The notes beneath the pieces are model-generated. The model did not search any database and had not been told where the DNA came from. It worked only from the letters and a program-made list of their open reading frames with translations. A stretch of DNA of 34,072 nt. Origin: Burkholderiales bacterium (GTDB lineage: Bacteria; Pseudomonadota; Gammaproteobacteria; Burkholderiales; Burkholderiaceae_E). The translations under genes and the position numbers were made by a program. Below, piece after piece: positions 17,097 to 32,122 of the stretch; the first letter of the stretch is position 1, and each line of letters opens with the position of its first letter. The stretch lies in assembly GCA_020248665.1 (NCBI GenBank), contig JADCHE010000100.1, positions 1-34,072 on the forward strand. Direction: 5' to 3'.

Positions 17097-17172
17097 GCCC
17101 TTGTAGCTCAGCTGGTAGAGCAGCGGTTTTGTAAACCGAAGGTCGCGGGTTCGATCCCTGCCGGGGGCACCA
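17097..17172 (+). tRNA. tRNA-Thr (anticodon TGT)
   Basis: This is a 76-nt cloverleaf with encoded CCA. The acceptor GCCCTTG pairs with CGGGGGC (two G-T pairs). The D arm is GCTC/GAGC, the anticodon loop TTTGTAA gives TGT (reads ACA), and the T arm has TTCGATC in the loop. The first anticodon-stem pair is G/A. The integrative element begins at its 3' end: sequence from 17159 onward is repeated in diverged form at 32049. Confidence 0.95.
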
Positions 17173-17233
17173 CTTCAGCATCCGATGACGTCCAACACCG
17201 TCCGTTTGATCCTCTAAGCCCGCGTCGCAGCGG
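17159..17233 (+). repeat. Left attachment-site repeat (attL)
   Basis: It begins in the T-arm/acceptor end of tRNA-Thr and runs through the downstream terminator. Hand alignment to 32049-32122 gives about 55 of 74 matching positions after one single-base gap. The first 17 aligned bases are identical, and the last 16 (GCCCGCGTCNCAGCGG) differ at one position. Confidence 0.72.
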
Positions 17234-17241
17234 GCTTTTTC
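17217..17241 (+). terminator. Rho-independent terminator of tRNA-Thr
   Basis: AGCCCGC and GCGGGCT form a 7-bp stem around a six-base loop, followed by a run of T. It lies inside the left att repeat. The corresponding right copy has lost the second half of the stem and the T-run. Confidence 0.9.
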
Positions 17242-17260
17242 TTGTCCGGTTCGTCCGTTT

Positions 17261-17359
17261 GGGGGCAACTGCGTCCGTTGACATCCGGCCGAGTCTGGGG
17301 GCAACATTGGGGGCAAGCCGGCGACCCGTCGGCATGTTGCCCCCAGGTGAGTTGCCCCC
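17261..17359. repeat. Cluster of GGGGGCAAC repeats around the integrase start
   Basis: There are perfect direct copies at 17261-17269 and 17297-17305, a near copy at 17309-17317, and perfect inverted copies at 17336-17344 and 17351-17359. The integrase ribosome site AGGTGA fills exactly the gap between the two inverted copies. Plausible roles are integrase arm-type sites, AlpA operators, or an RNA hairpin hiding the ribosome site. Confidence 0.85.
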
Positions 17360-17360
17360 G

Positions 17361-18599
17361 ATGCCGCTGACCGACACCGCGATCCGAAACGCAAAGCCCG
17401 GCGTGACGCCGAAGGGCCTGAAGACGGAGAAGCCGTACAAGCTCGGCGATGCCGGCGGCCTGTACGTGGAAGTCAGGCCGGATGGGGGCAAGTACTGGCG
17501 GCTCAAATACCGGATCGGGGGCAAGGAAAAGCGGCTGTCCCTAGGCGTCTACCCCGAGATCTCGCTGGCGAAGGCGCGCGAGCGGCGCGACGCGGCACGC
17601 AAGCTGTTGGTCGAGGGCGTCGACCCGAGCGAGCACCGGAAGGCGACGAAGGCGGCAGGCGTCGAGCGCGCGGCGAACAGTTTCGAGGTCGTCGCCCGCG
17701 AGTGGTTCGCGAAGCTCCAGTCGACGTGGGACTCGAGCCACGCCGACCGGATCAAGGCCCGCCTGGAGCGCGACCTGTTCCCGTGGATCGGCGGCCGGCC
17801 CGTTGCGGAGCTGACGGCGCAAGAGGTGCTGACGATGCTGCGGCGGATCGAGTCGCGGGGGGCGCTCGACACGGCGCACCGGGCGCTCGGCAACTGCAGC
17901 GCGGTGCTCCGCTATGCCGTCGCGACGGGCCGGTGCGAGCGCGACCCGACGCGGGATCTGCGCGGCGCGCTGCCGCCGCTCAAGGGTGGGCACTTCGCGG
18001 CGGTGACGGACCCGGCGAAGGTCGGGCCGCTGCTGCGAGGCATCTACGGCTACCAAGGCACGCTGCCGGTCCAATGCGCGTTGAAGCTGGCCCCGATGGT
18101 GTTCGTGCGGCCCGGCGAGCTGCGGCGGGCGAAGTGGGCCGACATCGACTTGGAAAAGGCCGAATGGCGCTTCCACGTCACAAAGACGGACACCGGCCAC
18201 GTCGTCCCGCTGGCGACGCAGGCGGTCGACATCCTGCGCGAGCTGCACGCGCTGACCTGCCGCAGCGAGTACGTGTTTCCGGGGGCGCGCAGCAACGGCC
18301 GGCCGATGTCGGATAACGCGATCCTCGCGGCGCTGCGGCGCATGGGCATCGGCAAGGACGAGATGTCCGGCCACGGGTTCCGCGCGATGGCGCGAACCAT
18401 CCTCGACGAAGTGCTCGGCTTCCGGCCCGACTTTATCGAGCACCAACTTGCTCATGCGGTCCGCGATCCGAACGGCCGGGCGTACAACAGGACGGCGCAC
18501 TTGAACGAGCGACGGAAGATGATGCAGGCGTGGGCCGACTGGCTGGACAAGCAACGCCACGGGGCGGACGTCATCCCGCTGCGTGAGACCGCCGCATAG
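17361..18599 (+). CDS. int: P4-type tyrosine integrase
   Basis: This 412-residue site-specific recombinase is presumed to integrate and excise this element at tRNA-Thr. It has an N-terminal arm-binding domain (DAGGLYVEV, RLSLGVYPEISLAKARERR, residues 1-95), then a core-binding SAM-like domain, then the catalytic domain. The catalytic residues are visible: Arg250 in VRPGELRRAKW, His338 and Arg341 in HGFRAMART, and the nucleophile Tyr375 in GRAYNRTAHL. The ATG at 17361 (MPLTDTAIRNAKPG) is chosen because it gives the family N-terminus and follows AGGTGA. An upstream ATG at 17259 would translate the repeat cluster. It appears intact. Confidence 0.95.
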   Translation: MPLTDTAIRNAKPGVTPKGLKTEKPYKLGDAGGLYVEVRPDGGKYWRLKYRIGGKEKRLSLGVYPEISLAKARERRDAARKLLVEGVDPSEHRKATKAAGVERAANSFEVVAREWFAKLQSTWDSSHADRIKARLERDLFPWIGGRPVAELTAQEVLTMLRRIESRGALDTAHRALGNCSAVLRYAVATGRCERDPTRDLRGALPPLKGGHFAAVTDPAKVGPLLRGIYGYQGTLPVQCALKLAPMVFVRPGELRRAKWADIDLEKAEWRFHVTKTDTGHVVPLATQAVDILRELHALTCRSEYVFPGARSNGRPMSDNAILAALRRMGIGKDEMSGHGFRAMARTILDEVLGFRPDFIEHQLAHAVRDPNGRAYNRTAHLNERRKMMQAWADWLDKQRHGADVIPLRETAA

Positions 18600-18704
18600 G
18601 GCACAACTAAGTCTTGGTCGCGCCTAGCCTGACGGGGCGAAAACCGGGTTCCCTTGCCCGGCCGGCGCGGCTTCTCTACAAGGCGAGCGCAAAGGGGCGC
18701 AGTG

Positions 18705-19340
18705 GTGACTGAAGCTAACGTTCGCGGTGAGCGGAGCGACTCACGCCAACCGAACTGGGATGTCTGGTTGCATGTTCCGGTTGCAATTCTTTGGGAAGCA
18801 GTTGCCCTATCGCTCGGCATTGATCCCAAGCGTGTGCGGATGTCGGACCATGGTTGGGCAGCCGGTCCGGATCATTTCTTGACAGATGAAGGGCCGGATT
18901 TCGACAACAGGCTGCTTGTTGCCTCACGCAACCTCAGGCAGGAAGGTCCGCTTCATCTGCAAGTCCCCCTCGTTGGCGGCCCTGCCACCTGCGGTGTGGA
19001 ACTCGGAGAATTTGCAGCTTGGGCTCTCAAGATCGGCTGGCATATGCCGCAGCAGATGTGTGAGCTTGGAATCGCGTACCGATCGAACGCAGTCGGCGAA
19101 CCAGCGAGTGCTCGCTGGCCCTGGGGGGATTACGAGACACCGCTCCTGAAGGCGTTGGCTGCCGCCGCGGATCGATGGTGGAAGCGCTACGACCCAACTG
19201 ACGCAACAACCGCACCGACCAATGACGCAGTCGTCGAGTGGCTGCGCAAAGAGTTCCCTGACCCGCCGATGTCCGCAAACATTGCCAGCGCGATCGCGAC
19301 GATATTGCGCGCGCCGTCAGTCCCGACGATTCGCAGGTAG
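18705..19340 (+). CDS. Conserved hypothetical protein of integrase-linked islands
   Basis: This 211-residue protein of unknown function has a probable GTG start at 18705, eight bases after AAAGGGG. The first in-frame ATG upstream (18654) lacks a site. The N-terminal WDVWLHVPVAILWEAVALSL, followed by GIDPKRVR, and the C-terminal TAPTNDAVVEWLRKEFPDP with ATILRAPSVPT are familiar from uncharacterised proteins beside integrases in proteobacterial islands. No catalytic motif, membrane segment or metal site is visible. Base composition is clearly less GC-rich than the core genes, consistent with transfer. It stands alone between the integrase and the AlpA region. Confidence 0.8.
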   Translation: MTEANVRGERSDSRQPNWDVWLHVPVAILWEAVALSLGIDPKRVRMSDHGWAAGPDHFLTDEGPDFDNRLLVASRNLRQEGPLHLQVPLVGGPATCGVELGEFAAWALKIGWHMPQQMCELGIAYRSNAVGEPASARWPWGDYETPLLKALAAAADRWWKRYDPTDATTAPTNDAVVEWLRKEFPDPPMSANIASAIATILRAPSVPTIRR

Positions 19341-19374
19341 GCGCTGCAGGGAATCCCCGACAGCTAGGTCGGGC

Positions 19375-19454
19375 TTGGGGTTGAACCCCCAAGACCCGCA
19401 CCACAGGCCGAACTTCGGCCGATTTTGATTGGGGTTGAACCACAGGGATTGAAC
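19375..19454. repeat. Direct repeats TTGGGGTTGAACC upstream of the AlpA-like gene
   Basis: TTGGGGTTGAACC occurs exactly at 19375-19387 and 19429-19441, and a third variant GGGATTGAAC lies at 19445-19454. The first copy sits in a hairpin-capable palindrome (GGGGTT-G-AACCCC). Between the repeats, GGCCGA/TCGGCC followed by GATTTT (19407-19427) could terminate the preceding gene. They are candidate operators or replication iterons. Confidence 0.65.
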
Positions 19455-19531
19455 GCGTCAGACCTCCCTGGTTCTCATCGAGCTGTCGATGATCCGACCA
19501 CGTCCGCTGTCGGACGATGGAGATCATCGCA

Positions 19532-19750
19532 ATGCCCCTGATTCCTGAGTACGGATTCCTGCGCCTGCCGCAGATCCTCGGCGACGCGAAGGCCGACCCG
19601 CCGGTCCCGCCGGTGATCCCGGTCTGCAAGTCGACCTGGTGGGCCGGCGTGCGCGCCGGCCGCTACCCCAAGCCCGTGAAGCTATCGTCGCGCGTCACCG
19701 TGTGGCGCGCCTCGGACATCCGCAAGCTGATCGAGCAGGCGGAGGGCTGA
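19532..19750 (+). CDS. AlpA-like helix-turn-helix regulator
   Basis: This 72-residue DNA-binding protein is of the AlpA/HTH_17 type. The core KSTWWAGVRAGRYPKPVKL, followed by SRVTVWRASDIRKLIEQ, matches AlpA, which acts as a transcription activator or excision factor for P4-like integrases. I use the ATG at 19532 with GGAG nine bases upstream. ATG 19517 is an alternative adding five residues. It heads a tightly packed unit: the next start codon lies six bases after its stop. It is a plausible ligand for one of the two nearby repeat families. Confidence 0.88.
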   Translation: MPLIPEYGFLRLPQILGDAKADPPVPPVIPVCKSTWWAGVRAGRYPKPVKLSSRVTVWRASDIRKLIEQAEG

Positions 19751-19756
19751 CCGGTA

Positions 19757-19939
19757 ATGGACCAGAAAAAGAAAGCGGGCACCTCGACGATCGTCGAGGC
19801 GACCCGCAAAGACTTCAGCAGCCCCAATCGTAGCGCGATCGCCTCCGGCATCGCGGCCTGGATCGGCCGCGTGGCGCTCTGGGGCCTGCTGCCGCTCAAC
19901 GTCGCCGAGGCGATCATCCGCTGGGTGAGGTCCGCATGA
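19757..19939 (+). CDS. Small hypothetical protein, 60 aa
   Basis: This short protein has a Lys-rich start (MDQKKKAGTS) and a hydrophobic/amphipathic C-terminal half (IAAWIGRVALWGLLPLNVAEAI), possibly a membrane-associating helix. It lies between the AlpA-like gene and the next small gene, whose ATG overlaps its TGA stop. That coupling supports it being real. No family recognised. Confidence 0.65.
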   Translation: MDQKKKAGTSTIVEATRKDFSSPNRSAIASGIAAWIGRVALWGLLPLNVAEAIIRWVRSA

Positions 19940-20163
19940 GCGCGCGTCTCGACATCCCCTGCGACGCGCTCGCCGCGGTCGACGGCGAGAAGCGCGCGAA
20001 GCGCGCGATCCGTTGCGCCGAGCACGGCATGGCCCTCTCGCCCGACCATCTGCTGCACGAGCTGCAGGACGCCTTCGCGGTCGACGGCCAGTACGTGAAG
20101 CCCACGCCGCGGGTGCGCGGGTTCATGCGCGCGATCGCCAAGCACCTGGAGGGCACCAAATGA
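19936..20163 (+). CDS. Small hypothetical protein, 75 aa
   Basis: This 75-residue soluble protein (MSARLDIPCDALAAVDGEKR) overlaps the preceding gene by four bases (ATGA) and the replicase start by four bases (ATGA at 20160). The chain of overlaps marks it as part of the replication operon. Two Cys residues and a His (IPCDAL, RCAEHGM) are present but form no clear metal site. I do not recognise it. A role as a small replication or regulatory partner is inference. Confidence 0.72.
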   Translation: MSARLDIPCDALAAVDGEKRAKRAIRCAEHGMALSPDHLLHELQDAFAVDGQYVKPTPRVRGFMRAIAKHLEGTK

Positions 20164-23030
20164 ATGCCCTCACGTTCACGCTGTACGAGTCCAGGCGCCC
20201 GTCGGTGCTCACGAAGTCGATCGAACTGCGCGAGGACGGCACGCTGGCGAAGACGCCCGCCGCGCAGATGACCGACGGCATCGCGCGAACCGTCGTCGTC
20301 GCGGACCTGGCGGAGTTCGCGGCGACGCTCGATGCGCTCACCAGCGCCCAGGCGGTCGGGTACGGCGTCGCGCCGGCGCACGACTACGCCCGCGTCGTGA
20401 CCGACGCCGCGTGGAATGCGCTCGACGATGCCGCAAAGCGCGAGGTCATCGCCCGCACCCGGCGTTTTCTGCAGTTCGCGCCGCGGCCCGGCGTGATGAT
20501 GCTCGATCACGACGGCCACCCCGACGGCGAGATCCACCCCGAGCGGCTGCACGCGATGATCGTGGAGGCGGTGCCGGCGCTTGCCGACGCGCAGATGCTC
20601 TGGCGCGCGAGCGCGGGAAGCTGCATCGTCGGCACCGACGGCCGCATGCTCTCAGGGCTCGGCGGCCAGCGCCTCTACGTCGCGGTCCGCGACGCGTCGC
20701 TGATCCCGCGGGCCGGCGAGGCGCTGGTGTCCCGGCTGGAGGCGGCCGGGCACGCCTGGGTCAAGGTGTCGAGAGCGGGCGCGACGCTGCAGCGCACGCT
20801 CGTCGATGCCTCCGTCTGGCAGCCCGAGCGCCTGGACTTCGCCGGCCCCCCGGTGCTCGGCCCGGGGCTGCGTCGCGAACCCCCGCCGGCTCGGCTGCTC
20901 GGTCCGGCCGACGCACCGCCGTTCGACCTGCGCAGGATCGAGGCCGACGGCGAGGTTCAGGCCGCAGCAAAGAAGTACCGCGCGCAGACGCGGGCCGCCG
21001 CGGAGCCCGAGGCGCGTACCGCGCGCGAGGCGTACATCGAGGCCGAGGCGCCGAAGATCGCCGAGCGGCGCGGCATCGAGCTGGAGGCCGCCCGCGCGAT
21101 CGTGCAGCGCGCGACCACCAAGCACGTGCTGATGGGCGACTTCGTGCTGACGGCCCACGACGGCGCCGAGGTGACGGTGGGCGAACTGCTCGACAACCCG
21201 GCACGCTGGCACGGGCAACGCTTTGCCGACCCGCTGGAGCCCGAGTACGGAAACCGCGATCGGCGCATCGCGTGGGCGAACCTGAGGAGCGGCGGCAAGC
21301 CGTTCATCTACTCGCACGCGCACGGCGGGCAGCGGTACGTGCTGGCTCGCCCGGCGCGGCGCATCCAACTCGCGCGCGGGGATCGGGCACGCGTCGTCGA
21401 TCAGGTGCTCGATGCGATCCGCGCCGAGGGTGAGCTGTACGACTTCGGCGAGGGCGGGGGCATGGCGCGCCTGGCCGACGGCGCCGCGCTGCCGGTGACG
21501 CGCGACTGGCTGCTCGACTACCTCGATCGCACCTGCTCGTTCTTCGTCGTCAAGATGGTCCACGAGATGCCGGTCGAGGTCGACGCGGACGCCCCGCCGG
21601 CGCTCGCCGCCTCGATCCTCGCCAAGTCGGGCGAGCGCAGGCTGCCGCGCCTGGTCGCGGTCACGACGGCTCCTACGCTGCGGCCCGACGGCTCGGTGCT
21701 CGACGAGCCCGGCTTCGATGAGGTGTCGGGACTGCTGTACCTTGCCGGACTGAACGCGCCGCGCGTGCCGCGCGAGCCGACGCCGCGCGAGGCCATCGAG
21801 GCGCTGCGCACGCTGTGGGCGCCGGTGAGGTTGTTCCCGTTCGTCGACGACGTGGACCGCGGCGTCGCGCTCGCCGCGATGGTCACCGCCGGCCTGCGTG
21901 CGAGCCTGCCCACGGCGCCCGGCTTCGCGTTCGACGCGCCTACCGCCGGCAGCGGCAAGACGCTGATGGGCAAGGTCATCGGCATCCTGGCGACCGGCGA
22001 GAGCCCGCCCGTGCTGCCGCCGGCCGGCGACCGCGACGACGAGGCCCGCAAGCGCCTGTTCTCGGCGCTGCGCGACGGCCGGCGCGTGCTGCTCTGGGAC
22101 AACGTGCGCGAGCCGCTGGGCGGCGCCGCGCTCGACGCATTCCTGACCGCGCCGACCTTCTCCGATCGCGTGCTCGGCGTCTCGGAGATGGCGACACTGC
22201 CCAACCGGGCGCTGCTGATCGCCACCGGCAACAACCTGCGCCTGGTGGGCGACACCTGCCGGCGGATCCTCGTCGCCCGCATCGACGCGCAGATGGAACG
22301 GCCCTACGGCCGGTCGTTCGACTTCGACCCCGAGCAGTACGTCCAGGCACACCGGCTCGAGCTCGTGGTCGCCGCGCTCACCATCGTCCGCGGCTGGATC
22401 GCGGCGGGCCGCCCGCGGCTCGGCACCGGGCGCACCGCGTCGTTCGAGACCTGGGACGACCTGGTGCGCCAGCCCGTGCTGTGGGTCGCCGAGCAGGCCC
22501 GTGCGCTCGGCGCCGGGCTGCCCGGCTTCGCCGATCCTGTCGAGGCGGTCGAGCGAGCGTTCGGGGCAGATCCCGAGACCGCGAAGCTCGCGGCGCTGCT
22601 GGCCGCCTGGGAAGCATGCTTCGGCGAGCGCCCAACTGCGGTGAAGGAGGCCATCCGGTACGCGGAGCAGGCCGGCACGGACCCCGCGGCGCAGGCGCTC
22701 GCCGATGCGCTGGACGAGGCGGCCGGAGAGCGCGGACGGGTCAACCCGCGAATTCTGGGGCGCTGGATCGAGCGCAACGTCGGGCGCCGGAACGCCGGCC
22801 GCTGGATCGAGGCGGGGCGGCTGCGCGACGGCTACAAGACCTGGGCTCTGCGCCGCGAGGATCGCCGACCGCCCGAAAACAACCCACTGAAACCCACTAC
22901 TCCCACTTCCGCCACTCAGGACACCCTCCAGGAAGTGGGTTCAGTGGATGTCAGTGGGTTTCTTCCGGTCAACGGATGCACGTTGCCGGGCGCCGCGACG
23001 GCGTCGGGCTCGTCGGTCGAGGTGTTCTGA
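20160..23030 (+). CDS. Large primase/helicase-like replication protein
   Basis: This 956-residue protein is probably the element's replication initiator. The N-terminal 350 residues resemble primase-polymerase-like regions of phage and plasmid replicases (MMLDHDGHPDGEIHPERL, QMLWRASAGSCI, GGQRLYVAVRDASLI). The C-terminal part is an ATPase: Walker A DAPTAGSGKTLMG (Lys600), a Walker B-like RVLLWDN near 642-648, and a sensor-like IATGNNLRL near 688. The start ATG overlaps the preceding stop. The C-terminus (NPLKPTTPTSATQD) is encoded by a set of phased repeats that look like an origin. Exact catalytic residues of the primase half are not certain from the sequence alone. Confidence 0.82.
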   Translation: MNALTFTLYESRRPSVLTKSIELREDGTLAKTPAAQMTDGIARTVVVADLAEFAATLDALTSAQAVGYGVAPAHDYARVVTDAAWNALDDAAKREVIARTRRFLQFAPRPGVMMLDHDGHPDGEIHPERLHAMIVEAVPALADAQMLWRASAGSCIVGTDGRMLSGLGGQRLYVAVRDASLIPRAGEALVSRLEAAGHAWVKVSRAGATLQRTLVDASVWQPERLDFAGPPVLGPGLRREPPPARLLGPADAPPFDLRRIEADGEVQAAAKKYRAQTRAAAEPEARTAREAYIEAEAPKIAERRGIELEAARAIVQRATTKHVLMGDFVLTAHDGAEVTVGELLDNPARWHGQRFADPLEPEYGNRDRRIAWANLRSGGKPFIYSHAHGGQRYVLARPARRIQLARGDRARVVDQVLDAIRAEGELYDFGEGGGMARLADGAALPVTRDWLLDYLDRTCSFFVVKMVHEMPVEVDADAPPALAASILAKSGERRLPRLVAVTTAPTLRPDGSVLDEPGFDEVSGLLYLAGLNAPRVPREPTPREAIEALRTLWAPVRLFPFVDDVDRGVALAAMVTAGLRASLPTAPGFAFDAPTAGSGKTLMGKVIGILATGESPPVLPPAGDRDDEARKRLFSALRDGRRVLLWDNVREPLGGAALDAFLTAPTFSDRVLGVSEMATLPNRALLIATGNNLRLVGDTCRRILVARIDAQMERPYGRSFDFDPEQYVQAHRLELVVAALTIVRGWIAAGRPRLGTGRTASFETWDDLVRQPVLWVAEQARALGAGLPGFADPVEAVERAFGADPETAKLAALLAAWEACFGERPTAVKEAIRYAEQAGTDPAAQALADALDEAAGERGRVNPRILGRWIERNVGRRNAGRWIEAGRLRDGYKTWALRREDRRPPENNPLKPTTPTSATQDTLQEVGSVDVSGFLPVNGCTLPGAATASGSSVEVF
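22881..22962. repeat. Phased CAGTGGGTT iterons in the replicase 3' end, possible origin
   Basis: The left array reads AACCCACTGA, AACCCACTAC, TCCCACTTCC in 10-bp steps (22881-22910). The right array carries the reverse complement, AAGTGGGTTC, AGTGGATGTC, AGTGGGTTTC (22933-22962), with 9-10 bp steps. About 22 bp separate the arrays. Helical phasing plus inverted symmetry suggests a replicase binding site or a hairpin-type initiation site, overlapping coding sequence. Confidence 0.75.
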
Positions 23031-23656
23031 TGGGCGCCGCCGACCTTCTGGGGACGCTCCGGGCCGCCGGGCTGACCGTCGAGGCCGACGACGACCGTCT
23101 GATGGTGGCGCCGGCCGAGAAGCTGACCCGAGCGCTGCGCGAGCTGATCCGGGCGGAGAAGCCGGCACTGCTCGCGGCGCTGGCGGGCGCGCAGAATGAA
23201 TCTGGGCCGAGACCCGCTGCGGCGCGCTGGTTACTGCACCTGCCCGACGCCGACCCGCTGGCGGTGGCGTTCGATCCTCCGGCCACCCACGACGAGGTGC
23301 TGGCGCGCTACTCGGGCGCGCTCGCAGCAGAGCCGGTGCCCGAGACGCTAAAGGTCGAGTTGCCCGCCGCGATCGAGAAGTTGTTCGTCCAGTGCGTAGA
23401 GTCCGGGCTGTACGACGAGGCGGACCGGGCTGTGCTGCAGGCGATGCACGCCATCAACCCGGTCGACGCGCGCACGGTAATCGACGAGATGTACTCCAGG
23501 ATCGGCCGCTGCCACCGTTGCGTTCACTTCGCGCGGCCCGGGCTGTCCGACGGCTACTGCACGAGGCGCGACGACCTTCCGGCGGCATACGGCCTCATGC
23601 GTCACCTTCCCCCGGACGGCGGCGCGCTGTGTGCGATCTTCAAGGAAATGTCATGA
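23030..23656 (+). CDS. Conserved hypothetical protein with TubC-like N-terminus and Cys-rich C-terminus
   Basis: This 208-residue protein starts within the replicase stop (TGATG). The N-terminal 55 residues (DLLGTLRAAGLTVEADDDRL, EKLTRALRELIRAEKPALLA) resemble the TubC docking fold that also appears in phage and plasmid proteins. The C-terminal GRCHRCVHF, GYCTRR and GALCAIF supply four or five Cys that could bind zinc. The middle is less distinctive. Its place directly behind the replicase suggests a replication accessory role. I do not know a tested function. Confidence 0.78.
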   Translation: MGAADLLGTLRAAGLTVEADDDRLMVAPAEKLTRALRELIRAEKPALLAALAGAQNESGPRPAAARWLLHLPDADPLAVAFDPPATHDEVLARYSGALAAEPVPETLKVELPAAIEKLFVQCVESGLYDEADRAVLQAMHAINPVDARTVIDEMYSRIGRCHRCVHFARPGLSDGYCTRRDDLPAAYGLMRHLPPDGGALCAIFKEMS

Positions 23657-24363
23657 ACCGTACCCCTCCTCCAGCGACGTCGCCACGGAAGGACCGAACG
23701 TTGAACCTGACCTCGAACTCCCCGGACAAGAACAAGGACGCGAAGATCGCGGAGACGATCGTCAGCGGTATCGCGCCCAACTCGCTGACGGTCACTCACT
23801 TCTCGAAGGGTGCACTCGGCGAGGTCGATCTGACCGAGGTGTTCAACGCGATGCAGACGTCGGCCAAGAACGTGAAGTCCGGCGACCTGTCCGCGGTCGA
23901 AGGAATGCTCTCGTCGCAGATCGAGGCGCTGAATTCAATCTTCAGCGAGTTGGCGCGTCGGGCAGCGATGAACATGGGCGAGTACCTGGACGCGATGGAC
24001 CGCTACATGAGGCTGGCGCTGCGTGCCCAGAGTCAGTGCCGCGCCACCGCCGAGACGCTGGCAATCATCAAGCAGGGGCCGCCGATCTTCGCGAACCAGG
24101 CGAACGTCGCGCACGGTCCGCAGCAGGTGAACAACGGACCGCTCAACGCGCGCCGCGCGGGCGAGAAAAGCACTTCTTGGCAACCCGAACTATTGGAGTC
24201 GAGCGATGTCGAACGGCTGGACACCGGAGCGGCGGGCGCGGCAGGCCGAAGCGATCCGGCGCTGGAAGCCGTGGGAACAGAGCACCGGCCCGAGGACGCC
24301 GGAAGGCAAGGCCCGATCGCAGCGAAACGGCAGCAAGCCCGGTGTGCGATCGATCGTCCGTGA
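23653..24363 (+). CDS. Conserved hypothetical protein with QQVNNG motif
   Basis: This 236-residue protein of unknown function overlaps the preceding gene by four bases. A disordered start (residues 1-30) is followed by a mixed domain (KIAETIVSGIAPNSLTVTHF, KGALGEVDLTEVFNAM) and a long helical region (SSQIEALNSIFSELARRAAM, MGEYLDAMDRYMRLALRAQS). It ends with FANQANVAHGPQQVNNG and a charged tail. I have seen this pattern in many proteobacterial genomic islands, always uncharacterised. The last 50 residues are encoded by sequence shared with the next gene in another frame. The nearby small TPEGKAR gene looks like its usual partner. Confidence 0.82.
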   Translation: MNRTPPPATSPRKDRTLNLTSNSPDKNKDAKIAETIVSGIAPNSLTVTHFSKGALGEVDLTEVFNAMQTSAKNVKSGDLSAVEGMLSSQIEALNSIFSELARRAAMNMGEYLDAMDRYMRLALRAQSQCRATAETLAIIKQGPPIFANQANVAHGPQQVNNGPLNARRAGEKSTSWQPELLESSDVERLDTGAAGAAGRSDPALEAVGTEHRPEDAGRQGPIAAKRQQARCAIDRP

Positions 24364-24421
24364 AGTATCGCGAGTGCTTCGTGCTCAGCGCAACCTGCTC
24401 AACGAATGGCCTGGCGGATAG
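24206..24421 (+). CDS. Small conserved protein with STGPRTPEGKAR motif
   Basis: This 71-residue basic protein (MSNGWTPERRARQAEAIRRW, then STGPRTPEGKARSQRNGSK). The STGPxTPEGKAxxxxN motif marks a widespread family of unknown function in mobile DNA. A GGAG ribosome site lies seven bases upstream. The first 158 nt overlap the 3' end of the preceding gene in a different frame, and both frames look conserved. The high Arg/Lys content suggests nucleic-acid binding, which is inference. Confidence 0.75.
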   Translation: MSNGWTPERRARQAEAIRRWKPWEQSTGPRTPEGKARSQRNGSKPGVRSIVREVSRVLRAQRNLLNEWPGG

Positions 24422-24452
24422 GGGGCAGGTTGCCGGGCGACGGGCCGTGCCA

Positions 24453-24468
24453 ACCCGCCCGGGCGGGT
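24453..24468. terminator. Perfect 16-bp GC palindrome between convergent genes
   Basis: ACCCGCCCGGGCGGGT is fully self-complementary. It lies in the 93-bp gap between the end of the replication/accessory unit and the 3' end of the convergent TetR gene. As RNA it would need a small loop. A terminator or boundary role is likely from position, but there is no T-run. Confidence 0.4.
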
Positions 24469-24514
24469 CTGCGAACGTAGACGGGAGACACCAGCTTTTC
24501 ATGGCGACGAATCG

Positions 24515-25285
24515 TCACTGTTTGCCCCTTGACCTCAGCGTGCTGACGGGCGCCGAGAGCCCGCCGACCATGTAGTCGATGTTGTCGCGGACCATGGTTT
24601 CATAGCGCCTGGCGTTGGACGCATCCACCGGCCCGTTGGCGCGCAGCCACTTCGCAAGGCTCGTGCTCAACCCCAGCCCGAGCATGCGCATCCGGGCTTC
24701 GAACACCGTTGCGGGAAGCCCGGGCGCCGTGCGGCGCAGCATGCCGAATGCCCGCGCATAGGCACTGCGACGCGACGCGTCCAGCAGGGCTTCGATCTCG
24801 AGCAGCTGCGGATCGAGCAGCACCTGCACCGAGGTCAGCACGAAGTCGCGTCCCCACGCCTCGCGCCTGATCACGTCGGTCACCGAAGTCACCACCGCTT
24901 CGACCAGCGCGTGCAGGTCCTGGTCGGTCCCTTCCGCGACCAGAGCGTCGAGCCGCAGGTGGCGCAGGTCGTTGATGACCCCGTTGCGTCGGTCGAGCAG
25001 CGCCGCGATGAGCCGAAGCCGGTTGCCGAAGTGGTACGTCAGCGCGGCCTGGTTCGACTGACCGCTGGCACGGAGGATCTCGCGCGTGGAGACTTGGTGG
25101 ATCCCGCGCTCGGCGAACAGCCGCTCCGCTGCGTCGAGCATCGTGGTACGGGTGGCCGGCACGGCGCGGTCCGCCCCGCCACCGCCGGCGGCGAACGCTT
25201 CTCCGGGCGACCGATTCCGTGTCGATACCGGCTCGGTCGCGGGCGCCCCCGCCCCAGCCGCCCCGTCCCAAGCTTGACGCTTCAT
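24515..25285 (-). CDS. TetR/AcrR family transcriptional regulator
   Basis: This 256-residue one-component repressor has an extended, disordered N-terminus (residues 1-45), then the TetR helix-turn-helix (TTMLDAAERLFAERGIHQVS, TREILRASGQSNQAALTYHF near 48-90). The rest is the all-helical ligand domain. The start at 25285 gives MKRQAWDGA. A later start nearer the DNA-binding domain cannot be excluded. It diverges from the sulfatase operon across a 167-bp gap that contains a perfect TAATGCA-GT-TGCATTA palindrome, so it most likely represses that operon and itself. The effector is unknown but may be an aryl or sterol sulfate ester or its product. Confidence 0.92.
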   Translation of the reverse strand: MKRQAWDGAAGAGAPATEPVSTRNRSPGEAFAAGGGGADRAVPATRTTMLDAAERLFAERGIHQVSTREILRASGQSNQAALTYHFGNRLRLIAALLDRRNGVINDLRHLRLDALVAEGTDQDLHALVEAVVTSVTDVIRREAWGRDFVLTSVQVLLDPQLLEIEALLDASRRSAYARAFGMLRRTAPGLPATVFEARMRMLGLGLSTSLAKWLRANGPVDASNARRYETMVRDNIDYMVGGLSAPVSTLRSRGKQ

Positions 25286-25298
25286 CTGATGGGGGATC

Positions 25299-25314
25299 TA
25301 ATGCAGTTGCATTA
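25299..25314. promoter_or_regulatory. Probable TetR operator TAATGCA-GT-TGCATTA
   Basis: This is a perfect 7-bp inverted repeat with a two-base centre, 14 bp upstream of the regulator start and about 140 bp upstream of the first operon gene. The symmetry and placement between divergent units are those of a TetR-family operator. The palindrome is seen directly; binding is inferred. Confidence 0.75.
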
Positions 25315-25452
25315 CTACAAGTGGTGGAAGCGGTATTGTCGCCCCTCGATGCCCCGATCGGGTGCCGGACGCACGAGGCTAGCCAACCTCGTGGATTCCG
25401 GTTCCCGACGGTTGTAGGCGTCCAGGTGGCCTGTGTCGGCGGGAGCGCGCCC

Positions 25453-26007
25453 ATGAAGGTCTCGTGCATTGCAATCGCCACGGTGCTGTTCATCGTCGTC
25501 CCATCCGTCGGCGCGCAGCCTCCCATCACCACGAAGCCCGTGCAGTTCAAGAAGGGCGAGAGCGGCGCCACGATCAAGGGCACGATCAAGGGCGACCAGA
25601 TCGTCGACTACAAGGTGCGTACCGGCGCCGGCCAGGCGATGGTCGTGCAGTTCAGGCCCAGCAACCCGTCGACCTACTTCAACGTGCTGCCGCCCGGCAG
25701 CGACGAGGCCATCCACGTCGGCTCCAGCGCGGGCAACGCCTTCTCCGCCGAGCTGAAGGCCGGCGGTGAATACACCATCCGCGTGTACCTGATGCGCAAT
25801 GCCGCGCGCCGCAACGAAACCACGAGCTATACGCTGGACATCGGCATCGCGGGCCCCGTCAAGCAAGGTAGCGCCCCGGGCCTGGGCGTGCTCACGTTGG
25901 TTGGCCTCCCCGGAGACGGCCGGCAGCGCAGCAGCGACGAGGCCGGGCTCGGCGTCGTCGGCGACCCGCCCCGTGTCCGCCCCGATGCGTCCGTCAACGG
26001 CGCCTGA
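25453..26007 (+). CDS. Small secreted protein, PPC/lysozyme-inhibitor-like
   Basis: This 184-residue exported protein starts at ATG 25453 with a Sec signal (KVSCIAIATVLFIVVPSVGA, cleavage near residue 21). The mature N-terminal 115 residues form a beta-rich domain (VQFKKGESGATIKGTIKGDQ, VDYKVRTGAGQAMVV, GGEYTIRVYLMRNAARR) resembling bacterial pre-peptidase C-terminal domains and periplasmic lysozyme-inhibitor-type proteins. The last 50 residues are Gly/Arg/Pro-rich without pattern and could be a frameshifted tail. It is first gene of the five-gene TetR-controlled operon. Function is not established. Confidence 0.75.
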   Translation: MKVSCIAIATVLFIVVPSVGAQPPITTKPVQFKKGESGATIKGTIKGDQIVDYKVRTGAGQAMVVQFRPSNPSTYFNVLPPGSDEAIHVGSSAGNAFSAELKAGGEYTIRVYLMRNAARRNETTSYTLDIGIAGPVKQGSAPGLGVLTLVGLPGDGRQRSSDEAGLGVVGDPPRVRPDASVNGA

Positions 26008-26016
26008 ACCCGTCAC

Positions 26017-26625
26017 GTGAGCGCCGCTGCCCGATGGACCTGGTGGCTGCCCCTGTGCCTGCTGGCCGCCTGTGCCTCCGGCCCCTCGCCGCTGGGGCCG
26101 TCCGGCGCGCCGGTGGTGGCGCAGGTGCTGGGGCACCCGGTGCGCGCGAACGGCCCTGACGAGGTGCAGTACCTGATCCTGCGCGAGCTGACCGACCGTT
26201 TCGCGGCCGAGCGCGGCATCGGCGTTTCGCAAGCCGAGGTGGATGCGTGGCTCGCTCGCCAGCGGCAGGTGCTGGCCGCCGACCCCAACGTGATGTCGGT
26301 GCCGGACAGCGCCGAGGAGCGGGCCGCGCGCGAGCATTCCGCGCGTGCCTACGAGCTGCAACGCAAGATCGACGGCGCGCTGCAGCGGCAGTACGGCGGG
26401 CGCATCGCGGTGCGCACCGGCGGCGCCGTGCCGGTGGATGCGTATCGCCGCTTTCTCGAGGAGCAGGCGGCGCGCGGGCGCTTCCGGATTCTCGACGCCG
26501 CGTACGAACGCGAGTTCTGGCGGGCCTGGACTGACGACACACGCTGGCACTTCCTGCCGGCAGGCAGCGAGGTGGCCGACCGCGCGTTCGACGCACCGGC
26601 AGCACCACGCAATGTTCATCGATAA
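26017..26625 (+). CDS. Lipoprotein, possibly SurA/PpiC-N-terminus-like
   Basis: This 202-residue lipoprotein starts at GTG 26017, nine bases after the preceding stop. The hydrophobic leader ends in the lipobox LLAAC (Cys near residue 19). The mature part is mainly helical: VAQVLGHPVRANGPDEVQYL, then ERGIGVSQAEVDAWLARQ and a region rich in Ala, Arg and Glu. The order (short beta hairpin, long helices, GIGVSQAEVDAW) recalls N-terminal chaperone regions of SurA/PpiC-type isomerases, but no isomerase domain is present. It might assist folding of the sulfatase or the barrel protein encoded next. That is inference. Confidence 0.78.
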   Translation: MSAAARWTWWLPLCLLAACASGPSPLGPSGAPVVAQVLGHPVRANGPDEVQYLILRELTDRFAAERGIGVSQAEVDAWLARQRQVLAADPNVMSVPDSAEERAAREHSARAYELQRKIDGALQRQYGGRIAVRTGGAVPVDAYRRFLEEQAARGRFRILDAAYEREFWRAWTDDTRWHFLPAGSEVADRAFDAPAAPRNVHR

Positions 26626-26636
26626 GGGAGCGACCC

Positions 26637-28994
26637 ATGCGACTACATCGCTGTTTCGCCATCGCCGCGGTCCTGGCGGTGACACTGAATCAGGCCACCG
26701 CCCAGCAGCCGGCCGCGCCGCCGATTCCCTCCTTCAACCGGACGGTCCTGCCGATCGCCCCCGAGCCGTTCCAGGGCACGGTGGGCTTGCGATCCAAGGA
26801 CTCCAAGCCGGCGTTCCCTCGCCCCGTCACCGCACCGCCGGGGGCCCCGAACGTGCTGCTCGTCATGCTGGACGACGTCGGGTTCGGCGCGTCCAGCCCG
26901 TTCGGCGGAGTCATCGACACCCCCAGCCTCGACAAGCTGGCTGACGCTGGCCTGCGCTTCAACCGCTTCCACACCACTGCGGTGTGCAGCCCGACGCGCG
27001 CGGCACTGATCACCGGACGCAACCACCACACGGCACACACCGGCGTCGTGATGGAGATGGCCACGGGTTTCGATGGCTACAACAGCCTGGTCGGCAAGGA
27101 CATGGCCACCATCGGCGAAATGCTGAAGCTCAACGGCTACAACACCGCCTGGTTCGGCAAGAACCACAACGTGGCGGATTGGGAGTCAACGCAGGCAGGC
27201 CCCTTCGACCGTTGGCCGACCGGCATGGGCTTCGAGAAGTTCTATGGTTTCCTCGGAGGGGTGGCGAACAACTGGCGGCCGGCACTCTATGACGGCACGA
27301 CGCCGATCGAGCCCCATCTCGGCAAACCCGATTACAACCTGGACTTCGATCTGGCCGACCAAGCCATCGCCTGGATCCAGATGCAGAAGACCGTCGCACC
27401 CGACAAGCCCTTCCTGACCTACATCGCCCCGGGTGCCATCCATGCACCCCAGCACGCGAGGCCGGAGTGGATCGCGAAGTACAAGGGCAAGTTCGACATG
27501 GGCTGGGACAAGATGCGCGAGGAGATCTTCGCCCGCCAGAAGCGGATGGGCATCATCCCTGCCGATGCCAAGCTGACGCCGAGGCCCAAGGAGCTGCCGA
27601 GTTGGGACTCGATGAACCCGCGGCAGAAGAAGGTGATGGCACGCATGATGGAAGTGGCCGCCGGGCAGCTGTCCCAGGTGGACCACAACTTCGGCCGCGT
27701 GATGAAGGCCATCGACGAGATGGGCCTGACCGACAACACGTTGGTGATCTTCGTCATCGGTGACAACGGCGGCAGCGGCGAGGGGACGGTGCAGGGGGTC
27801 TTCAACGACATGAACATCGTGTCGCAGAGCACCGAGACGCTCGAGTACCTCGAGAAGAACATGGACGACATGGGCAGCTGGAAGTCGTCCAACCTGTATG
27901 GCGTGCCCTGGGCGTGGGCGACCAACACGCCGTTCCAGTGGACCAAGCAGGTGGCCAGCCATTTCGGCGGAACGCGCAACGGCCTGATCATCTCCTGGCC
28001 GAAGGGCATCAAGGCGAAGGGCGAAATCCGATCGCAGTTCCACCACGTCATCGACGTCGTGCCGACGATTCTCGAGGCCGCGAAGCTGCCGCAGCCGACC
28101 ACGGTCAGCGGCGTGACGCAGCACCCGATCGAAGGCACCAGCATGGTGTACACCTTCGACAACCCCAAGGCGCCGGACCGCGTGAAGACCCAGTACTTCG
28201 AGATCTTCGGCAACTCGGGCATCTACCACGACGGCTGGTTCGCGGGGACCAAGCCGTTCCGTCTGCCGTGGAGCGGCGTCGGGACCGACGCCGACTTGCT
28301 CACGACCCAGTGGGAGCTCTACGACATCGACAAGGACTTCTCCCAGGCCGACGACCTGGCGGCAAAGATGCCCGAGAAGCTGCGCGAGATGCAGGTGCGC
28401 TTCTTTGCCGAAGCGGCCAAGCACAACGTGCTGCCGATCCAGACCTCGGCGGCCGAGCGCTTCGGCGAAGGCATCCGGCCCAGCATGACGGGCGACCGCA
28501 AGACCTTCACCTACACGGCCGGCCTGAAGCGCATCCCCGAAGGGACCGCGCCTCCCGTCAAGAACCGGTCGTGGAGTCTGACGGCGGACGTCGACCTGAA
28601 GGGCAACGACTCGGGCGTGATCGCCACGCAAGGCGGGATCCTGGCCGGCTATGCGCTGTACTTCGAACAAGGCAAGCCGGTGTTCAGCTACAGCTTCACC
28701 AACGGCGAGAGATGGCGCATCGTCGCCAAGGACCCACTGGCCGCCGGAAAGCACAAGGTGGTCATGAACTTCACCTACGACGGCGGCGGGATGGGCAAGG
28801 GCGGCGCGGTCTCGATCACCGCGAATGGCAAGGAGGTTGCGCAAGGACGCGTCGAGAGGACCGTTCCCTTCCGCTTCTCGACCGAGGAGACCCTCGACAT
28901 CGGCGAGGACACCGGCACGCCGGTGGACGTGTCCTATGACGTGCCGGCCCGCTTCACGGGCGGGCTGGGCAAGGTCGTCTTCGATCTGAAGTAG
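26637..28994 (+). CDS. Secreted type I arylsulfatase
   Basis: This 785-residue periplasmic sulfatase hydrolyses sulfate esters. A signal peptide (residues 1-22, ending TAQQ) precedes the alkaline-phosphatase-fold domain: NVLLVMLDDVGFG with metal ligands Asp79-Asp80, and the maturation motif CSPTR with Cys117 (converted to formylglycine) and Arg121. GRNHHTAHTG, TAWFGKNHN and VIGDNGGSGEG follow. The C-terminal 130 residues form a beta-rich appendage (SWSLTADVDLKGNDSGVIAT, GYALYFEQGKPVFSYSF). The length and the appendage match large bacterial arylsulfatases. AAGGGA precedes the start. The substrate cannot be read. No formylglycine-generating enzyme is in the window. Confidence 0.95.
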   Translation: MRLHRCFAIAAVLAVTLNQATAQQPAAPPIPSFNRTVLPIAPEPFQGTVGLRSKDSKPAFPRPVTAPPGAPNVLLVMLDDVGFGASSPFGGVIDTPSLDKLADAGLRFNRFHTTAVCSPTRAALITGRNHHTAHTGVVMEMATGFDGYNSLVGKDMATIGEMLKLNGYNTAWFGKNHNVADWESTQAGPFDRWPTGMGFEKFYGFLGGVANNWRPALYDGTTPIEPHLGKPDYNLDFDLADQAIAWIQMQKTVAPDKPFLTYIAPGAIHAPQHARPEWIAKYKGKFDMGWDKMREEIFARQKRMGIIPADAKLTPRPKELPSWDSMNPRQKKVMARMMEVAAGQLSQVDHNFGRVMKAIDEMGLTDNTLVIFVIGDNGGSGEGTVQGVFNDMNIVSQSTETLEYLEKNMDDMGSWKSSNLYGVPWAWATNTPFQWTKQVASHFGGTRNGLIISWPKGIKAKGEIRSQFHHVIDVVPTILEAAKLPQPTTVSGVTQHPIEGTSMVYTFDNPKAPDRVKTQYFEIFGNSGIYHDGWFAGTKPFRLPWSGVGTDADLLTTQWELYDIDKDFSQADDLAAKMPEKLREMQVRFFAEAAKHNVLPIQTSAAERFGEGIRPSMTGDRKTFTYTAGLKRIPEGTAPPVKNRSWSLTADVDLKGNDSGVIATQGGILAGYALYFEQGKPVFSYSFTNGERWRIVAKDPLAAGKHKVVMNFTYDGGGMGKGGAVSITANGKEVAQGRVERTVPFRFSTEETLDIGEDTGTPVDVSYDVPARFTGGLGKVVFDLK

Positions 28995-29008
28995 GCCGGA
29001 CGAGCCGA

Positions 29009-29797
29009 ATGAAAACGGCCGGCGCACTGACCTGCCTGTGCCTTGCCGCCCTGAGCCCGCACCAGGTCCTCGCCGGCGAGGACCCGGCGCACCCCGGCAC
29101 CGAACACCGGACCGATGACAACGGGACCGATCCCACCCGCGTCAGTCGGACCGTGCAGTTGAAGTTCGAGCATCTCGCGCTTCGCGATGGCTTCGGCAGC
29201 AACACCCTGAAGCTCTGGTACTCGCAACCGCTCGGCGAGGGATACAGCGCGATCTTCAAGCTGCCCGTGACGCAGGTGGAGGTGCCTGGCAACAAGGGCG
29301 CCGGTCTTGGAGACGTGTCGGTCCAGGTGGGGAAGGTGTTCGGCCTCACGCGCGAGGGGGGCCACGTCGTACAGGGAGAGATGATCTTCGAGACCGCGAC
29401 GCGACCCGAACTCGGTGCCAACCAGAACGTCTTCAAGGCGACGTACGTCAGGGCGATCTTCCTGCAGGACGGGTCGATCCTGGCGCCTTCCATCGTGCAC
29501 AACGTCGGCGTCTGGGGGCAGGACGACCGTCCCCGAGTCAACCTGAGCACCCTCGATGTCTACTACGTTCCGAAGATGGTCGATCCGCGCAACCTCGTCA
29601 CCTTCGATCCGAACGTCAACTACAACTGGCAGAACGACAACCGTTTCGCGAGTCTGGCCGTCACGCTGGGTCGCAACCTCGGCAAGTCGCCGTTCGGCGG
29701 CAATCACTTCGTTCTCGTCAAGCCCGCGATCCTGGTCGGTGGCGACCGGCCCAACAGATGGGGCGTGGAATTGACCTACAGGGTCATCGGGTTCTAG
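29009..29797 (+). CDS. Outer-membrane beta-barrel-like protein
   Basis: This 262-residue exported protein has a signal peptide (residues 1-22, ending HQVLAG) and a mature part made of alternating strands (TVQLKFEHLALRDGFGSNTL, KLWYSQPLGEGYSAIFKLPV, WGVELTYRVIGF). The C-terminal aromatic residue Phe is typical of outer-membrane barrels. About 12 strands could be formed. It starts 14 bp after the sulfatase gene. A role in passing the sulfated substrate or its product across the outer membrane is an inference from context. I cannot place it in a named porin family. Confidence 0.82.
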   Translation: MKTAGALTCLCLAALSPHQVLAGEDPAHPGTEHRTDDNGTDPTRVSRTVQLKFEHLALRDGFGSNTLKLWYSQPLGEGYSAIFKLPVTQVEVPGNKGAGLGDVSVQVGKVFGLTREGGHVVQGEMIFETATRPELGANQNVFKATYVRAIFLQDGSILAPSIVHNVGVWGQDDRPRVNLSTLDVYYVPKMVDPRNLVTFDPNVNYNWQNDNRFASLAVTLGRNLGKSPFGGNHFVLVKPAILVGGDRPNRWGVELTYRVIGF

Positions 29798-29810
29798 AGG
29801 CTGGCACCGC

Positions 29811-31718
29811 ATGGCACAGACCAGACCCGAGGGCCGACTCGCGGAACGACGAGGCGGGGCCGACGCGCCTCGCGGGTCGGTCAGGGACCTTCCTCGCCTC
29901 GCCCGGCTGCGTGTCGCCGGGATAGCCACCGCACTGGTTCTCGCCGGGTGCGCGAGCTTCACCCCGCAACCCGGCCCAGGTCCCGAGCCCGGCGGCAACT
30001 ACGTGATGCTGACCACTCCGATCATCGCCGTCGGCGACACGCAGGAGCATCACTCGACAGGCTACCCCCTGCATGACAACGACAGCGCGGTCGACGCCTA
30101 CGTCGAAGTGACCCAGCGCCCCCCGGAGCAGCCGCTGTTCGGTCGACGGATCCTCGAGTGGGCCCTGACGCGGCATCAGGACGAGCCCTTCATCCATCTC
30201 GGCGACCTGCTCGACCTGTCGTGCCGCAACGAGGCGCGGCGGGTTCGCGACACGTTCCGCACGGTGCGCAGCCCGGGGGCGATCCTGCCCGGCAACCACG
30301 ATGGACTGATGTTCGGCATCTACGGCTACGACGTCCTGGCGGCCGCGCTCGATCCCGGTGCCGCGAAGTGGAACCGCGCCTGCCGTCGCGGCGCCTCCCC
30401 GGACGATGCCGGGCATCGCACCGGGAACGAAGCGCTGACGAAGCGCGACTTCATCGCCATGTACTTCGAGGCGCTGACCGAGGGGCCGCGTCCCCTGCCG
30501 GGCCTGCAACCGCCGCCGGCCTCGGGCGAGCGGCGTGTCAGCTGGCGCGACCCACGTCCGAGCGCGTATCTCTCCGCGATCGAGGCCAAGGTGCTCGACG
30601 GGCACCGCTACGCCGACTCCTTCCTGGCGCAGCGCCTGAGGCTGCCGCGCGCGCCCGGGGCGACCCGCGGCGTGGTCCTCATCGGGCTGGACACCAACCA
30701 GGCGGGTGCGCTGGTCAGCACCTGGGACACCCTCATGGGACGCAGCCCCGGAAGCCAGGGGCACGTCCACCCGGACCAGTTGCTGGCCATCGAAGGCTGG
30801 CTGGACGAAGCGATCCGTGACGGCGACATCGTCGTCTTCGCCGGTCATCACAACTGGCGGTCGCTCGGATTGCCGACGCGCACGCTGCTGCGCAGCGTGA
30901 TGGGCCGGCTCGATCATCCGCTGGTCTACCTGTCCGCGCACACCCACAGCGGCTTCTGGGCCGTGCACCGGGAGTTGGCGCGCCGGCCGCTCCTGGAGCT
31001 GAACGTCAGCTCGCTGTCGGACTGGCCGATCGCGTACCGACGCATCAGCTTCGCCTACGACGAGGAGGCCCGGCGACTGCGGGTACGCGGCGAGCTCATG
31101 CCCAGCGGCGACGTGCCCAGCGCGACCTACGCAGACCTGCTGGCAGCGTGGGAGCGCGATACGTGTGCACGTACCGGCGTGCCCGCTGAAATGATCAGGG
31201 AACTCGATCTCGTCACCGTCAAGCGACAGCGCGAGTCGCGAGGCACGCTGGTCGAATGGCTGCTGCTGGCGGTCGGTCCCGCGTGCGAGACCTGCGAGCA
31301 GCCGCTGTTCGACCACGCCAACGCCTACCTGGACGCGATGTTGCAGGTACTGTTGCAGGGCGACGCGATCGTGAAGTCCAACATGACGGGCGTGCAGTTC
31401 CCCAAGGCACCGCTGCCGTCCTGGTGCGGTCCTCGGACCTTCCCGGACTGCGCGAACGGCCTGATCGCCGAGAAGCCCGGGGACTACCAGGCCAACGTGA
31501 CCCTGTTCCGTCGAAAGGCCGAGCTGATCGAGACGTTCAACGGCTTCCTCGATCGCCTCGACCAGCCCGAGGTGAAGGCCTACATGACCTGTCGCGCGGT
31601 GGTGGCTGCCAAGATCGACTTCGATGCGACCGACGAGGGCAACACCGACGATCGCAGCGAGGACAAGCGTCGCGCCGAGCAGTTCTTCCGCATCGAGGCA
31701 AGCGTCGGGATGGAGTAG
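29811..31718 (+). CDS. Lipoprotein metallophosphoesterase
   Basis: This 635-residue protein has the calcineurin-like phosphoesterase motifs in order: VGDTQ (Asp76), HLGDLLD, LPGNHDG, FAGHHN and SAHTHSGFW, so the dinuclear metal site is complete. The N-terminus has an unusually long basic leader of about 34 residues, then a hydrophobic stretch and the lipobox LVLAGC with Cys47. The C-terminal third adds Cys residues (CETCEQ, SWCGP, PDCANG) that may form disulfides. It is last in the five-gene operon, 13 bp after the barrel gene. The target could be a phosphate ester or diester at the envelope. The specific substrate is unknown. Confidence 0.92.
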   Translation: MAQTRPEGRLAERRGGADAPRGSVRDLPRLARLRVAGIATALVLAGCASFTPQPGPGPEPGGNYVMLTTPIIAVGDTQEHHSTGYPLHDNDSAVDAYVEVTQRPPEQPLFGRRILEWALTRHQDEPFIHLGDLLDLSCRNEARRVRDTFRTVRSPGAILPGNHDGLMFGIYGYDVLAAALDPGAAKWNRACRRGASPDDAGHRTGNEALTKRDFIAMYFEALTEGPRPLPGLQPPPASGERRVSWRDPRPSAYLSAIEAKVLDGHRYADSFLAQRLRLPRAPGATRGVVLIGLDTNQAGALVSTWDTLMGRSPGSQGHVHPDQLLAIEGWLDEAIRDGDIVVFAGHHNWRSLGLPTRTLLRSVMGRLDHPLVYLSAHTHSGFWAVHRELARRPLLELNVSSLSDWPIAYRRISFAYDEEARRLRVRGELMPSGDVPSATYADLLAAWERDTCARTGVPAEMIRELDLVTVKRQRESRGTLVEWLLLAVGPACETCEQPLFDHANAYLDAMLQVLLQGDAIVKSNMTGVQFPKAPLPSWCGPRTFPDCANGLIAEKPGDYQANVTLFRRKAELIETFNGFLDRLDQPEVKAYMTCRAVVAAKIDFDATDEGNTDDRSEDKRRAEQFFRIEASVGME

Positions 31719-32048: not shown

Positions 32049-32122
32049 TGCCGGGGCACCACTTCGACATCCGACGGAATCGAACGTCGCCGACCCGATC
32101 CCGTACGCCCGCGTCCCAGCGG
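32049..32122 (+). repeat. Right attachment-site repeat (attR, diverged)
   Basis: This is a diverged copy of 17159-17233. It begins TGCCGGGGCACCACTTC, carrying the tRNA acceptor end and CCA with one G fewer, and ends GCCCGCGTCCCAGCGG. It lies two bases before the stop codon of the PrsW-type gene. Confidence 0.7.

Follow-up and report, generated by a model that had tools for sequence, protein, structure and literature searches.

The origin of phage-inducible chromosomal islands and Staphylococcus aureus pathogenicity islands (PICI/SaPI) is described as lying immediately 3' of the primase/rep gene, with two sets of iterons around an AT-rich region, a layout which the authors call common to no other known bacterial replicon (PMC6092414). 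In the Streptomyces plasmid pWTY27, repAB and an iteron sequence form the basic replication locus; its RepA binds the array behind its own gene, protecting positions 405-447 and 462-509, and a linear derivative propagates, which the authors interpret as bidirectional replication (PMC3583192). The crenarchaeal plasmid pRN1 is reported to require a stem-loop just downstream of ORF904 for replication (PMC4234260). Here we analyse a stretch of 34,072 nucleotides from a Burkholderiales bacterium (contig JADCHE010000100.1; termed the window), in which the 3' end of a replicase gene carries an 82-bp array of short repeats. Comparison with related loci strongly suggests that the primase-helicase coded by this gene binds the array, which very probably serves as the replication origin.

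Origins inside the coding sequence of an initiator, as here, are described for lambda O (PMC3985674) and for rep of the plasmids pSK41 and pT181, in which the origin-coded part of the protein is reported to be dispensable for replication (PMC5703833). As far as these descriptions go, ori lies in the middle of O and the Rep boxes of pSK41 are central in rep rather than in a C-terminal tail, and the lambda iterons measure 19 bp. A literature search at the level of titles and the beginnings of abstracts returned no description of an origin that lies in the tail-coding part of a replicase gene from the present family. Lambda O and the Rep proteins of pSK41 and pT181 are initiators of other families than the replicase studied here. 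The alpha protein of satellite phage P4 is a primase-helicase whose winged-helix part binds repeats at the origin (ori and crr). Its primase is of another type (PMC4234260).

The array in the replicase gene

The gene, its product (P0001) and the array comprise the following features, the half-arrays being recognised by sequence, repeat search and detector:

20160-23030, forward strand: replicase gene, 956 amino acids (P0001), with an N-terminal primase-like part, an SF3/D5-like helicase, a C-terminal winged-helix-like domain and a disordered tail
22542-22859, forward strand: C-terminal winged-helix-like domain (residues 795-900), with helices at 805-872 and strands at 881-899 in the model
22863-23027, forward strand: disordered tail (residues 902-956) containing the array
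22881-22907, forward strand: left half-array, AACCCACT at 22881-22888, AACCCACT at 22891-22898 and CTCCCACT at 22900-22907
22934-22960, reverse strand: right half-array, AGTGGGTT at 22934-22941, AGTGGATG at 22943-22950 and AGTGGGTT at 22953-22960
22873-22968, no strand assigned: whole inverted repeat, arms 22873-22910 and 22931-22968, with CCGAAAAC and TTTCTTCCGG as outer ends

P0001 matched PHROG 16593 (DNA primase; residues 12-365) and PHROG 29234 (residues 474-897). Searches against NCBIfam and Pfam gave no match, and neither did a sequence search against PDB chains, the only set in which similarity to PICI Rep was sought. The AlphaFold2 model reached a predicted local distance difference test (pLDDT) value of 89.8, with the SaPI5 primase-helicase and PriRep1 as closest folds. 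The match to PHROG 16593 is what bears on the presence of an archaeo-eukaryotic primase; the fold matches hardly cover the N-terminal part. According to the model and its fold matches, an SF3/D5-like helicase is followed by a C-terminal winged helix as in pRN1-type replicases, and the winged-helix-like domain is the likely reader of the repeat units.

The array is placed directly behind this domain, within the open reading frame (ORF) and 62-157 bp ahead of the stop codon. In an alignment, the conserved part of the protein ends near residue 903 of P0001, from where the frame continues for about 55 codons through the array; in three relatives (L012, L018, L019) a stop codon follows almost immediately. 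The 55-residue tail is predicted to be disordered (pLDDT <50 for residues 902-956), which agrees with the proposal of the initial annotation that a Pro/Thr-rich coding tail would tolerate such constraint.

The three units facing three others which that annotation described are present where it placed them. Their steps, however, are not a plain 10 bp but mirror each other (10 and 9 bp on the left, 9 and 10 bp on the right), two of the six units are imperfect (CTCCCACT and AGTGGATG), and the innermost units are 26 bp apart instead of the claimed 22 bp or so. The arms of the whole inverted repeat are 79% complementary and separated by 20 nt. A detector for facing runs of at least five units found the array as its sole match in the window, and of 200 Markov-1 shuffled versions of the full window, 4 held any such array anywhere; this detector was tuned on the window, as its first version (exact 6-mer, without double steps) had missed the array and was widened.

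With an inverted-repeat score of 22, the array ranked top among 112 overlapping tiles of the window, two of which contain it (next score 18). When the 3' end of the gene was resampled with synonymous codons, none of 300 versions reached this score (maximum 18), and the array is therefore not forced by the protein sequence. Single-strand folding was better than in all 200 shuffles (z -4.69 as DNA, -5.98 as RNA). A large cruciform or hairpin, as initially proposed, is possible; it is not needed, because the halves in some relatives lie about 2.4-2.8 kb apart.

Compared with PICI/SaPI origins as described in PMC6092414, the locus shares the two iteron sets (3+3 in the window), the nearest fold (SaPI5 primase-helicase) and the presence of an integrase and AlpA. 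PICI iterons flank an AT-rich region, whereas the spacer of the window is short and GC-rich (20 bp, GC 0.65 vs 0.74 in the flanks), and for this reason we do not class the array as a PICI origin, although by analogy it would work like one. In outline, pWTY27 and the present replicase family do have the PICI layout. The replicase of pRN1, ORF904, likewise combines primase, SF3 helicase and C-terminal winged helix, but its origin is, according to the authors, without the iteron structure of plasmids, whereas the stem in the window is made of iterons (PMC4234260). The putative origin would be of a known kind (pWTY27, PICI/SaPI, pRN1); new are the ORF that reads through it, the outward-facing units and the short GC-rich spacer.

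Repeats at the genes of related replicases

To compare homologous genes, the highest-scoring inverted repeat no more than 300 bp from the stop codon was taken at each of 67 loci with a usable gene end. These were drawn from 74 genome loci (12 partial ones excluded: L082, L083, L085-L088, L093-L098), 25 viral loci (3 used, 2 repeats of L011 and L012, 20 partial) and 7 earlier viral loci (2 used, 5 partial); 84 phage records stand outside the array counts. The replicase in one viral-contig record is identical to the Pararhodospirillum oryzae protein (L055/L100). A score of at least 17, a limit chosen after the table was known and on a measure that received no further tuning and does not require iterons, was reached at 34 of the 67 gene ends; control tiles taken at these loci reached it in 4 of 841 cases. 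L048, which is among the 34, passes by a coding repeat and not by an iteron array. With one locus per 90% protein cluster, the ratio was 31/55 to 4/692 tiles (Fisher 1.5e-35), and it was 35/55 to 13/692 at a limit of 15 and 20/55 to 0/692 at a limit of 20. Only one of 212 ends of other ORFs had such a repeat, namely the array of L011 upstream of its own gene. A periodic detector responded at 15 of 67 loci and in none of the 841 tiles; owing to a filter against two-letter words, the periodic and facing detectors missed L027 and L032, both of which were found by the inverted-repeat score.

Nine loci were fetched after the detector had been built. Five of them reach 17 (L144, L146, L148, L151, L152), L147 scores 16 with 3+3 units visible, and L150, whose ORF tail is long, has a repeat scoring 48 in that tail, beyond the 300-bp limit. 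Among three earlier loci scored in the same way (of eight further ones, and viewed before scoring), L005 passes. Two control tiles reached 17 in these 12 loci, one in L145 and one in L005.

Plasmids carry the same arrangement. Thirteen loci were examined of 26 matching plasmid records, 13 of which are annotated merely as hypothetical protein; nine of these 13 have a repeat of at least 17 downstream of the gene, compared with 2 of 205 control tiles, and none was found there at the Cereibacter, Methanothrix, Legionella and Limimaricola loci. In a 6.5-kb Psychrobacter plasmid, the array lies 98-252 bp behind the gene, which is the sole evident replication gene among the four listed (a list that may be incomplete), and in a 12.6-kb plasmid it lies 8-128 bp behind it. 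RepA of pWTY27 is homologous to P0001 (tblastn 33.3%, residues 483-876, 1e-31), and the inverted repeat behind its gene scores 43 compared with 22 in the window. Besides the related helicase, the two loci share an inverted array of short repeats beside the gene, which in pWTY27 consists of 8-bp repeats (GTGGGAAC / TTCCCAC) immediately past repA; they differ in that the primase RepB of pWTY27 is a separate gene, its array is outside the ORF and has more units, and the host is a plasmid instead of an integrated island.

The letters of the units differ among relatives (ACCCACT, ACCCCGC, AACGGGT, GCCGGGT, GACTCAC, GGAGATA, GCATAGT and others), while the 9-10 bp steps and the mirror layout are constant. 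Arrays with G-rich units on the left have spacers AT-richer than their flanks in 24 of 27 cases (mean GC 0.39 vs 0.50). The opposite orientation, with 20-35 bp between the arms, occurs in the window, L027, L028, L032 and L071. A T-rich flank beside the units appears conserved by eye, and letters of the TGTCA type occur in the spacers of L020, L021, L051, L076 and L084, perhaps as an opening or host-factor site.

Among the 31 passing cluster representatives, the array is entirely within the ORF in eight (L027, L032, L051, L054, L057, L063, L068, L071) and spans the stop codon in four. On a quick tree, the in-ORF label, assigned partly by eye, requires eight changes, at least seven of them by well-supported branches; the reading frame has thus probably run through the origin more than once. 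The peptides coded by the arrays differ among relatives. In the 12 sequences of the Rhodoferax-like sister clade, the right half lies in the gene, and its codon identity at same-residue pairs was 0.915 compared with 0.634 for the part of the gene ahead of it; none of 908 windows was as high. The arrays of relatives, the binding reported for pWTY27 and this synonymous constraint all support the initial assignment of the array as a recognition site or origin for the primase-helicase of the same gene.

Several observations weigh against this assignment. The 20-bp, 65% GC spacer of the window contains no AT-rich melting region between the halves. At 33 of the 67 loci, close relatives included, the score remained under the limit at the gene end; the initial annotation had named homologous genes lacking the array as evidence against an origin, and in part such genes exist. 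Nothing was found at the gene end in four loci of the Acidovorax clade (L029, L030, L031, L034; the clade also includes L048); the units of the clade were located elsewhere in all four genomes tested by DNA search (L029, L030, L034, L048), as tandem same-direction half-arrays which in L030 and L048 stand about 4 kb behind the gene. No array at all was found, partly by eye, in L026, L079, L089 and L090, and among the plasmid loci L022, L124, L128 and L129 are without such a repeat at the gene end. Of the later loci, L149 has no array and L145, a gene broken by an in-frame stop, has its strong inverted repeat upstream, about 1.2 kb ahead of the match, where its control tile scored; the earlier loci L003 and L004 fail. 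The L019 plasmid (17.7 kb) also has a repM gene, so that the relative need not be its initiator, and the similarity of pWTY27 RepA to P0001 is limited to the helicase part. Finally, codon identity is also high (0.80) in the Rhodoferax-like tail behind the half-array, and not all constraint there is therefore due to the units.

Most of the 33 loci under the limit, sorted partly by eye, have units in another arrangement. In 14 of them, one half is at or near the gene start and the other at the gene end (the 12 Rhodoferax-like loci L037-L047 and L053, with the left half present in 12/12, and L025 and L035), the two halves facing each other across about 2.4-2.8 kb. A weaker array is found at the gene end in L061, L062, L073, L075, L076 and L084, and units about 260-290 bp or more past the stop codon in L072 and L077. 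A full array stands upstream of the gene in L011 and a half-array in L036, and L033 has one half at the gene end and the second 1.2 kb further. Upstream of the gene in L036 (910-1170), a segment of some 100 bp that includes a three-unit half-array is present in three copies, be it by assembly or in reality. Four Acidovorax genomes (L138-L143) have AAACCC-type tandem half-arrays about 100 bp apart, each beside a CTCGCG.TTCG-like motif, and the L048 contig has mirror copies of such half-arrays kilobases away.

Proposed mechanism and rival explanations

From the spacing and the fold, the C-terminal winged-helix-like domain would bind the three units of each half on one face of the helix. The two mirror halves may then seed two replicase rings in opposite directions; the helicase would open the DNA and the primase part would start synthesis both ways, copying the excised island. 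The replicase frame would run through this origin; as the peptide coded there is a disordered linker, the cost to the protein would be small. An acidic-hydrophobic tip often ends the tail: SSVEVF in the window (23010-23030), mostly DDVEIF in the Rhodoferax-like sequences (L037-L047, L053), DDVATF in Acidovorax (L029-L031, L034, L048), DDVAVFLP in L032 and, by eye on the DNA, DVEVF ahead of the stop codon of L003. Such a tip resembles the C-terminal tip of single-strand binding protein. Lying past the linker coded by the origin, it could serve as a docking peptide.

Alternatively, the array might be a control site, bound by the replicase or by AlpA for the regulation of copy number or downstream genes, with the true origin elsewhere. 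The lack of an AT-rich spacer in the window would suit such a site, as would the half-arrays at the gene start or kilobases away in some relatives, which are possible operators or handcuffing sites. We nevertheless regard it as unlikely, since the 6.5- and 12.6-kb plasmids have the array close behind the replicase gene, the array is the detector's sole match in the window, and the array region of pWTY27 belongs to the basic replication locus according to its description (PMC3583192). The strong RNA hairpin (-47.3 kcal/mol, z -5.98) could also point to a terminator or attenuator in the replicase messenger. This explanation is very improbable: no T-run longer than three follows directly behind the array, the next gene overlaps the replicase stop codon, such repeats are rare at the ends of other ORFs (1/212), and a hairpin terminator cannot explain relatives with halves 2.4-2.8 kb apart or an array upstream of the gene.

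Short inverted-repeat arrays are known at partition and recombination sites too. A parS-like or excision-related function is slightly less probable still, as the attachment sequence is located at the tRNA and the array accompanies the replicase gene across plasmids and islands. The tail is disordered and of low complexity, as expected if the array were a by-product of a Pro/Thr-rich repetitive protein end, but the failure of all 300 synonymous recodings, the varying peptides of relatives and the codons of the homologous in-gene half-array, constrained beyond the gene average, leave this explanation a negligible probability. The terminator, partition and protein-repeat explanations were rejected on this evidence.

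The host island and the replicase family

The element that carries the putative origin is best read as an int-alpA island of about 15 kb at a tRNA-Thr gene. Integrase, int-alpA RNA and alpA stand in this order beside the tRNA, as in int-alpA genomic islands, AlpA being barely above its cut-off:

17097-17172, forward strand: tRNA-Thr (tgt), left attachment side of the island
17334-18599, forward strand: tyrosine integrase (PF22022, PF13356, PF00589)
18617-18683, forward strand: int-alpA RNA (RF02996), 66.5 bits vs gathering 35.8
19517-19750, forward strand: AlpA-like small regulator (PF05930), 21.5 bits vs 21
23030-23656, forward strand: gene after the replicase, its start codon overlapping the replicase stop, with a TubC_N-like N-terminus (PF18563, 25.4 bits, below the cut-off of 26)
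32053-32074, forward strand: candidate right attachment repeat, 20/22 identical to 17164-17185 (tRNA 3' end and the bases behind)

A subset of the island genes was scanned, which returned, besides these integrase, AlpA and sub-threshold TubC_N matches, a TetR regulator, a sulfatase and a metallophosphoesterase as cargo (17172-32074); several scanned genes had no match.

A doubtful extension is that a portable half-origin module, made up of some three units of 9-10 bp, which to the eye often read NNN-GGGTTT, and of a T-rich flank, serves all members of the replicase family whatever the geometry, its letters being set by the winged-helix domain. The geometries would be inward around an AT-rich spacer, outward 26 bp apart in the ORF as in the window, or with halves at the two gene ends about 2.4-2.8 kb apart, which would then need looping to be joined. 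Among 232 distant pairs of proteins, the eight with the same letters were more alike in helices 824-838 and 863-874 (0 and 6 of 2000 permutations) and less alike in the stretch 874-882 (1998 of 2000 permutations); given that eight stretches were compared and the letters called by eye, the link between unit letters and protein helices is a lead only. If the module exists, the unit letters would be readable from the sequence of the winged-helix protein.

A simple rule follows from the comparison: origins in unstudied islands, plasmids and prophage-like elements would be predicted by looking for triple repeats in mirror pairs at the 3' ends of replicase genes. This rule links the origins of PICI, pWTY27 and pRN1. 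The varied units, presumably read by a shared binding domain, make the choice of origin letters by an initiator directly testable, and with its split and in-gene forms the family offers natural tests of how freely origin geometry can vary.
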